Shown here in pieces: positions 8,933-23,916 of a stretch of DNA of 38,810 nt. The stretch comes from an uncultured PS1 clade bacterium (lineage in GTDB: Bacteria; Pseudomonadota; Alphaproteobacteria; MED-G09): positions 1-38,810 of the forward strand of contig CACLNZ010000008.1 of assembly GCA_902608415.1 (NCBI GenBank), written 5' to 3'. Positions within the stretch are counted from its first letter, which is position 1; each line of letters starts with the position of its first letter. The notes beneath the pieces were generated by a model. The model was not told where the DNA came from. It searched no databases and saw only the letters and a list, made by a program, of their open reading frames with translations. Position numbers and translations under genes: made by a program.

Positions 8933-9538
8933 TTATGATTTTGAGCTTTCTCTATCTTTAAATTTCAAATGCCATGAGTTTATATTGCTAAATTCGTTGT
9001 GAATTTTTAAATTTAGGCTTTCAGCAAATGTAAATGTAGAAAATAAAGTACAATCTGCAATAGTAGGTCTATTGCAGATTAAAAACTCATGTCCTGATAT
9101 TTCATTTTCTAATATTTGAAGATTCTTTTTGTAACAATTTAGTGCCATTTCCGCAGCTTCTTCTGATTGGGGCCCCTTATCTTGAAAAAAAGGTGAAACA
9201 TTATGGACATAATTTCCAAGTTCAATCATTAGACCAAGTTCTACAAGGCGATCAATTTCTTGGATTTTTGCTTTTTCCAGTGGATCTTTTCCTAGCATAT
9301 TTGGTTCATTTTTTATGCCTTCAAGGTATTCAATAATAGCTCTTGATTCTCTAATTATAGTTCCATCATCAAGCTCTAAGAAAGGTACAGTTCCTAAAGG
9401 ATTTTTCTTTAACATTTCCGGAGTTCTTAAGGCATGATTAAGTAAATCCACTGCAATATAATCAATCAGTATTTGTTTTTCATATGCAAAAATTCGAACT
9501 TTTTGAGCATTTGGAGCCGGATAATCATACATTTTCAT
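8933..9538 (-). CDS. glutathione S-transferase family protein
   Basis: MYDYPAPNAQKVRIFAYEKQI, NPLGTVPFLELDDGTIIRESRAIIEYLE, PTIADCTLF. Confidence 0.93.
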   Translation of the reverse strand: MKMYDYPAPNAQKVRIFAYEKQILIDYIAVDLLNHALRTPEMLKKNPLGTVPFLELDDGTIIRESRAIIEYLEGIKNEPNMLGKDPLEKAKIQEIDRLVELGLMIELGNYVHNVSPFFQDKGPQSEEAAEMALNCYKKNLQILENEISGHEFLICNRPTIADCTLFSTFTFAESLNLKIHNEFSNINSWHLKFKDRESSKS

Positions 9539-9555: not shown

Positions 9556-9912
9556 CTATTCTTTATTTTTAATTCTTCTTAAATGCATATTGTACAAATA
9601 AAAAGCAAATGGTTCATAAAATAAATTCATAATAAATATACAAATTCTGTTATCTAAAAGATAGCTTAGCCACTTAAATCCTTTAGTATTTTTCCAAATC
9701 AAAATAAAAGCTCTTGCCCCCACATATTCAACTCCATTTAGATATGCATGCATTCTTCTGTTGTATTTATTTTCTAATAATGAAGAGTCATTATATACAA
9801 TTCCTGTCGATCGTGATTTGTAAATACTAATTTCTCTTTTGCAGATCGGGCATGAATTATTGAAATATATATCAATTGTACCTTTATTTTTGATTTTATT
9901 GGTCATCATCAT
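9556..9912 (-). CDS. DCC-family (DUF393) thiol-disulfide oxidoreductase-like protein
   Basis: IDIYFNNSCPICKREISIYKS (CxxC at the DCC position), NGVEYVGARAFILIW. Confidence 0.88.
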   Translation of the reverse strand: MMMTNKIKNKGTIDIYFNNSCPICKREISIYKSRSTGIVYNDSSLLENKYNRRMHAYLNGVEYVGARAFILIWKNTKGFKWLSYLLDNRICIFIMNLFYEPFAFYLYNMHLRRIKNKE

Positions 9913-10015
9913 CTTCTACTTGTAATAAAACTTTTTTCAACAATTTATATTCTTCACTATCTTCACCTAATGTTTTCTTGAAATAATCTAATGCTCTTTT
10001 AGTTTTATCAGTCAT
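9896..10015 (-). CDS. 39-aa acidic-tailed mini-protein overlapping the DUF393 start
   Basis: MTDKTKRALDYFKKTLGEDSEEYKLLKKVLLQVEDDDDQ*; same strand as DUF393 and overlaps its start. Confidence 0.5.
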   Translation of the reverse strand: MTDKTKRALDYFKKTLGEDSEEYKLLKKVLLQVEDDDDQ

Positions 10016-10087
10016 TAAGTCAAAATATCTCGTATATAAAGAATTTAATATATATCAATTATAAATAAAATCATTTAAGTAGTTAGT

Positions 10088-10174
10088 ATGATCAATTTTT
10101 ACAAAAAACCTTGTGAATGCTGTAATTCAGACTGTAGTTGTAGTTGTAGTTGTTGCAACTGTAGTTGTTGCTAG
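10088..10174 (+). CDS. putative 28-aa cysteine-rich micro-protein (11 Cys)
   Basis: ATG-to-TAG ORF: MINFYKKPCECCNSDCSCSCSCCNCSCC*. No clear SD; built partly on a TGTAGT microsatellite, so coding status is uncertain. Confidence 0.4.
   Translation: MINFYKKPCECCNSDCSCSCSCCNCSCC
10132..10171 (+). repeat. imperfect TGTAGT/TGTTGC low-complexity tandem repeat
   Basis: ctgtagttgtagttgtagttgttgcaactgtagttgttgc. Confidence 0.85.
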
Positions 10175-10190
10175 TTTTAATTTATAAATT

Positions 10191-10304
10191 TTAGTTATTA
10201 CTTTTTCTTCCAAATATTTTTAAAACTATCATCAGTATGATGATGCTTATAGGAACCGCGCCAAGCTTTAAAATATGAATTACGCCTTCAATTAAGTTTT
10301 CCAT
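10191..10304 (-). CDS. 37-aa single-TM mini-protein
   Basis: MENLIEGVIHILKLGAVPISIIILMIVLKIFGRKSNN*; hydrophobic core with a basic C-terminus. Confidence 0.5.
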   Translation of the reverse strand: MENLIEGVIHILKLGAVPISIIILMIVLKIFGRKSNN

Positions 10305-10380: not shown

Positions 10381-10677
10381 ATGAGAAATGTTATTATAAT
10401 TGCTTTTTTAACTTTATTACTAAGTGTACCAAGTTACGCTCAGTATAAAGAGCCAAAACTAAGAAACAATTTAAATATTTATAAAAAAGAAAGAGAAACT
10501 AAGAAAATAGCAACTTTAATTAAAGATGAATGCAAATATTTAAAGCTAAGTGCAATTAGCCTTGTTAAAGAATCATATTTATTAAATAAAAATAATAATA
10601 TAATTTCAGATGAAGAAATGAAGTTAATTAAGGATGCGCATTATTTTTCGGTTAATTGGTCATCATTATGTGATTAG
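10381..10677 (+). CDS. small exported protein of unknown function
   Basis: Signal peptide MRNVIIIAFLTLLLSVPSYAQ followed by a soluble 77-aa domain with two Cys. Confidence 0.65.
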   Translation: MRNVIIIAFLTLLLSVPSYAQYKEPKLRNNLNIYKKERETKKIATLIKDECKYLKLSAISLVKESYLLNKNNNIISDEEMKLIKDAHYFSVNWSSLCD

Positions 10678-23553: not shown

Positions 23554-23916
23554 ATGAATAATAATGTTGAAGGGGGATGTTTTTGCGGTTCAGTTCGCTA
23601 TAGTTTTAAATTTGATGAATATCCATCCGCAAATTGTTATTGTTCAATATGTAGACGAATTTCAGGTGCCCCATTTGTTTCTTGGCTAGCTATTCCTGTT
23701 GTTCTTTTTAAATATCTTAATAGTAAACCTAAAAAAATAAAATCTTCCTCTCATGGAGCTCGTTTCTTTTGTGTGGAATGCGGCACTCCAATAGCTTGTG
23801 TTCTTGAAGAAGATTCAAAAAATATTAATATTACTATTGCCAGTCTCGACAAGCCGCAAGAATTTGAACCAAAAGCTAATATATATGTTGATGATATGCT
23901 TGATTGGCTGAAATAA
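23554..23916 (+). CDS. GFA (glutathione-dependent formaldehyde-activating)/CENP-V-like zinc protein
   Basis: GGCFCGSVRYSF; NCYCSICRRISGAPFVSW; FFCVECGTPI. Confidence 0.93.
   Translation: MNNNVEGGCFCGSVRYSFKFDEYPSANCYCSICRRISGAPFVSWLAIPVVLFKYLNSKPKKIKSSSHGARFFCVECGTPIACVLEEDSKNINITIASLDKPQEFEPKANIYVDDMLDWLK

Follow-up and report, generated by a model that had tools for sequence, protein, structure and literature searches.

A 28-residue cysteine-rich ORF in an uncultured PS1 clade bacterium, a possible miniature metallothionein-like microprotein

Within the window, as we call the whole analysed stretch of 38,810 nucleotides, we identified a 28-aa ORF at positions 10088-10174 of the plus strand, which encodes the peptide MINFYKKPCECCNSDCSCSCSCCNCSCC* with 11 cysteines (39 %). 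Translation confirmed the coordinates, the length, the number of cysteines and the ATG and TAG codons given for this ORF by an earlier sequence-only reading of the same DNA. We tentatively interpret it as a genuine, lineage-restricted cytosolic microprotein that may serve as a miniature-metallothionein-like buffer of metal and thiols. A syntenic ortholog is present in the congeneric OCS116 cluster bacterium AG-430-B22 (G003, GTDB contig QCOD01000007.1).

The cysteines are arranged as CxCCxxxCxCxCxCCxCxCC in the C-terminal two thirds of the peptide, with three CC pairs and with Ser or Asn as spacers. The N-terminus is short and aromatic/basic (M-x-N-F-Y-K/R) and, as judged from the sequence, does not resemble a signal peptide. 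The runner-up among the 420 window ORFs of at least 20 aa had a Cys fraction of 17 %, and the highest value in the windows obtained by 200 first-order Markov simulations was 26 %, both well below the 39 % of the Cys ORF. This null model contains no tandem repeats and a repeat-driven accident stays compatible with it, therefore the decisive evidence is the ortholog in G003.

The Cys ORF fits between two minus-strand micro-ORFs and overlaps neither of them, as the sequence-only reading had described. The first one (39 aa, MTDKTKRALDYF..., 9896-10015) is conserved in G003 and in a second congeneric genome, G005, and it overlaps the start of a gene for a DCC1-like thiol-disulfide oxidoreductase (PF04134, 9556-9912, minus strand). 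The other one (37 aa, MENLIEGVIHILKLGAVP..., 10191-10304) contains a hydrophobic stretch and is conserved within the genus and, to a weaker degree, in G008. The locus can be recognised by its flanks MTDKTKRALDYF... and MENLIEGVIHIL..., and the same two micro-ORFs lie on either side of the copy in G003. The 5′ intergenic region (10016-10087, 72 bp), divergent with respect to the 39-aa micro-ORF, held no promoter-like site common to both genomes.

The copy in G003 was the one clear match among the genomes of 61 relatives (E 6e-8). Its peptide, MKNFYRNPCDCCTADCSCNCSCCNCSCC, has the same start, stop and length, is 75 % identical and retains all 11 cysteines. The two ORFs differ by 17 bases, 12 of them at third codon positions, and five of the differences are switches between TGT and TGC. 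In the Cys frame, 9.5 of 11 synonymous sites differ as opposed to 7.5 of 73 non-synonymous sites, which gives pS 0.86, pN 0.10 and pN/pS 0.12 for this single pair of orthologs. In permutations matched for bases, with the types of base change kept, retention of all 11 cysteines was rarely reached by chance (P=0.0056), and the low number of amino-acid changes in the whole ORF gave P=0.05. The figures for the C-terminal part alone are weaker (0.055 for Cys retention and 0.18 for amino-acid changes) because C/T changes at the wobble sites of Cys codons are silent anyway. DNA identity between the window and G003 is 80 % for the ORF, 63 % for the 5′ intergenic region and 82 % for the next gene on the 3′ side, and 15 of the 16 bp that separate the ORF from this gene are conserved, so that the ORF does not form an isolated conserved island. 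Conservation of cysteines with synonymous drift, the pattern that the sequence-only reading had proposed to look for in relatives, was thus found in one congeneric genome, with no indel in the repeat. We regard this as moderate, not conclusive, evidence that selection may act on the Cys peptide.

The situation in G005 was different. This congeneric genome (95 % complete) contains both flanks with only about 16 bp between them and no remnant of the ORF, and its locus is shorter by about 160 bp, the Cys ORF included. An orthologous region lacking the ORF had been named beforehand as evidence against it, and such a region does exist, but the history of the DCC gene makes it look like a later deletion. 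In the DCC gene tree, rooted with another genus of the family, G003 and G005 grouped together (support 93 and 96) and the window branched outside, so a loss in G005 is the simpler history. The tree of the right flank differs, as it places G005 with G002 (support 85), and recombination at the locus is likely. The contig of G002 stops within the flanking micro-ORF, just short of the expected position of the Cys ORF, and the locus is not contained in the remaining three genomes of the genus. The Cys ORF is therefore present in two of the three genomes where the site is readable. In G005 the 39- and 37-aa micro-ORFs are arranged head to tail, separated by about 16 bp, and together with the DCC gene they could form one operon there.

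We did not identify any further homologue in 385 alphaproteobacterial genomes, and GTDB-wide and IMG/VR scans with back-translated peptides yielded no confirmed relative. The strict pattern CxCxCCxCxCC matched 66 stretches in GTDB and 23 in viral sequences. When these were read in frame, the only 28-aa ORF of this kind was the OCS116 ortholog; the remaining matches were either low-complexity frames or the Cys tails of long proteins. Weak peptide matches in G030, G009 and G004 fall within well-formed genes, in a different frame or antisense to them, and were put down to chance. Phage and plasmid collections contained no match to the Cys ORF, and Pfam, NCBIfam and PDB searches gave no match to its peptide. 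We consider it probable that the ORF encodes a real mini-protein for handling metals or thiols, which the cells can dispense with and which is confined to a very narrow lineage.

It is possible, though doubtful, that the ORF yields no functional product and is a young repeat-derived frame, arisen by slippage of TGTAGT units encoding Cys-Ser, that is open in two related genomes by chance. The ORF indeed rests partly on a microsatellite, as had been noted before: a TGTAGT tract of 3.5 perfect copies (21 bp, 10133-10153, plus strand) lies inside it and encodes Cys-Ser repeats. The absence of a Shine-Dalgarno sequence, also noted before, was confirmed, and it would fit this explanation together with the loss in G005, the single homologous genome and the amino-acid difference test with P=0.05 for the whole ORF and 0.18 for the C-terminal part alone; a Shine-Dalgarno sequence is, however, lacking also in about half of the 40 window ORFs checked, including several long ones. 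Against a chance frame, the start, the stop and the lengths of both the ORF and the repeat are unchanged across about 20 % DNA divergence, and the repeat in G003 is interrupted by point changes and contains no indel. The retention of all cysteines and the excess of synonymous differences argue in the same direction. Judged from the two aligned copies, the Cys ORF is more than a microsatellite accident.

Other frames of the same DNA were considered as well. Frame +2 and a Thr-rich antisense ORF are not conserved and were ruled out as coding. One antisense Gln/Leu-rich frame shows a pN/pS similar to that of the Cys frame because the two share wobble positions. In both genomes this frame is directly preceded by a stop codon, and the two copies share no start codon for it; it was rejected as a gene.

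The main functional rival is a regulatory leader peptide, on which the ribosome, in response to a shortage of Cys-tRNA (or to metal binding by the nascent chain), would pause at Cys codons and so control a downstream gene. Mycobacterial Cys-rich short ORFs are cysteine-responsive attenuators (PMC4633059; Canestrari 2020, cited in PMC9094748). The mycobacterial regulatory uORFs (cysA2 leader and others) are, like the Cys ORF, very short with Cys codons clustered towards the C-terminus (PMC4633059), and here, in the window as in G003, the 3′ end of the ORF can be drawn as a hairpin with a T-rich stretch behind it. However, the layout is wrong. The mycobacterial uORFs are located directly upstream of a co-directional operon, whereas no co-directional cysteine or sulfur operon directly follows the Cys ORF, and a conserved minus-strand gene intervenes before the next plus-strand gene. 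The latter starts at 10381, 206 nt downstream, encodes an unassigned secreted-type 98-aa protein, is no recognised cysteine or metal gene, and shares 85 % identity with its counterpart in G005, where the Cys ORF is absent. Moreover, simple attenuation does not need conserved spacing of cysteines with Ser/Asn. We consider a cysteine-responsive leader improbable. CruR, an upstream ORF of the DUF2946 type in Bordetella, also contains Cys and takes part in copper sensing (PMC9426467), but it is longer and carries CXXC and C-terminal RAPP motifs. The Cys ORF lacks this pair of motifs (no RAPP motif) as well as the operon layout, and it has no DUF2946 match.

Alternatively, an RNA hairpin acting as a terminator or small RNA could be the conserved element, with the peptide frame being incidental. 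The predicted hairpin (10130-10166, plus strand; consensus of 15 pairs) is located within the Cys-Ser codons upstream of the T-rich stretch and could be a possible intrinsic terminator or a by-product of the repeat. It is drawable on both the window and the G003 sequence with no broken pair, and terminator-like matches were rare in shuffled sequences. On the other hand, its folding z-score is about -1.4, no more stable than expected, no pair has changed on both sides between the window and G003, so there is no compensatory change, and 24 % of base-matched permutations retain all pairs. The Cys-Ser codon repeat is self-complementary by itself via G-U pairs. As pairing is retained no better than chance, we rejected the reading as an intrinsic terminator or as RNA alone, which seems quite improbable. 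The sole Rfam match in the window is a tRNA. A RiPP precursor processed by neighbouring thiol enzymes is very improbable: the short leader-like N-terminus, the Cys-rich core and the adjoining DCC1-like oxidoreductase are compatible with it, but a profile scan of the adjacent genes recovered no typical RiPP maturase, protease, transporter or exporter, most occurrences of the DCC gene are not accompanied by the Cys ORF, and the GST beside the ORF is not conserved.

The last two points bear also on the redox link that the sequence-only reading had drawn from the neighbouring GST and DCC genes. The DCC gene (PF04134) was identified in ten genomes of the family, of which only two contain the Cys ORF and eight have no detectable one, and G003 contains the ORF without the GST, having a different 119-aa ORF in its place. 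From the cold-shock gene to the DCC gene, the DNA of the window and of G003 is not alignable. A gene replacement is seen in this interval, with the GST in the window (8933-9538, minus strand), the unrelated 119-aa ORF in G003 (L002:620-979) and neither of them in G005, and the locus looks like a small variable spot. Of the earlier interpretation as a whole, the conservation of cysteines with synonymous drift stands and the link to redox neighbours does not. No metal-related gene adjoins the Cys ORF, whose neighbours vary between genomes, and we recognised no SmtB-like divergent repressor beside it.

Returning to the metallothionein-like microprotein, the ORF would be translated into a 28-residue soluble cytosolic peptide, soft metal ions, with Cu(I) or Zn(II) as the most likely candidates, would be enclosed by the C-terminal CxCCxxxCxCxCxCCxCxCC in a metal-thiolate cluster, and the product could act as a small metal and thiol buffer. 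Metal binding is plausible from the composition; the choice of metal, and of buffering over detoxification or thiol redox, is our inference. The peptide shows the broad properties of metallothioneins, as it is short, has a Cys content in the range of about 20-40 % in CxC/CC arrangement, and is conserved at 11 of 11 cysteines in its single ortholog. Neurospora crassa and Agaricus bisporus have functional copper metallothioneins (fungal family 8) that are 26 residues long and contain 7 Cys, so such a size suffices (PMC4755600). These resemble the Cys ORF in nearly equal size, richness in Cys and C-X-C pairs (PMC4755600), but family 8 has 7 Cys in a published pattern without CC pairs, as opposed to 11 Cys and three CC pairs in the Cys ORF, and we detected no homology in sequence. 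SmtA/BmtA (Pfam PF02069, Metallothio_Pro) are likewise small, Cys-rich, bacterial and soluble. Their model spans 51 positions, whereas the Cys peptide is about half as long, has no His and does not match it; no Pfam match was obtained for P0001 (E<=0.1) or P0002 (E<=0.01). PF02069 was not found in 18 genomes of the family, while the Synechococcus elongatus control was recovered. MymT of Mycobacterium tuberculosis is required for Cu resistance and has a predicted capacity of up to six Cu(I) (PMC7558416). It too is a small Cys-rich ORF that was formerly unannotated (PMC7558416), but it is a 4.9 kDa actinobacterial protein with a known role in copper resistance, and the library search shows no homology. 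The Cys ORF thus appears similar in kind to metallothioneins and, by sequence, is a member of no described family.

A bolder proposal, which we hold to be rather unlikely, is that the ORF represents a class of bacterial metallothioneins which, with only 28 residues and 11 Cys, would rank among the shortest and the densest in cysteine known so far, and to which a TGTAGT repeat gave rise de novo in a lineage of streamlined ocean alphaproteobacteria where no canonical bacterial metallothionein was detected. If the peptide is translated and binds metal, this ocean bacterium with its streamlined genome would possess a very small metal-thiolate protein that may have originated from a simple repeat, and the de novo origin of a metallothionein-like peptide could be tested directly on this case. 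Such an ORF would also escape annotation pipelines with a lower limit of about 30 aa.

Several other Cys-rich sequences were encountered. The Cys pattern recovered proteins of about 360-430 aa from Nocardia, Streptomyces, Actinomadura and relatives (L058, L061, L064, L065, L074, L085, L088, L090, L104 and L111), which are unrelated to the Cys ORF and in which a conserved CC..DPYHDPWTGEPK-like stretch precedes a terminal Cys-rich tail (CDCDCCDCDCC). The viral contig L142 (IMGVR_UViG_3300032236_000387) contains a long frame, open for about 465 codons and full of CDCCNCDCC repeats. Elsewhere in the window, a MerC-family membrane protein (PF03203, 23934-24377, plus strand) with the C-terminal sequence CKELDCDCHD adjoins a GFA-family gene (23554-23916).
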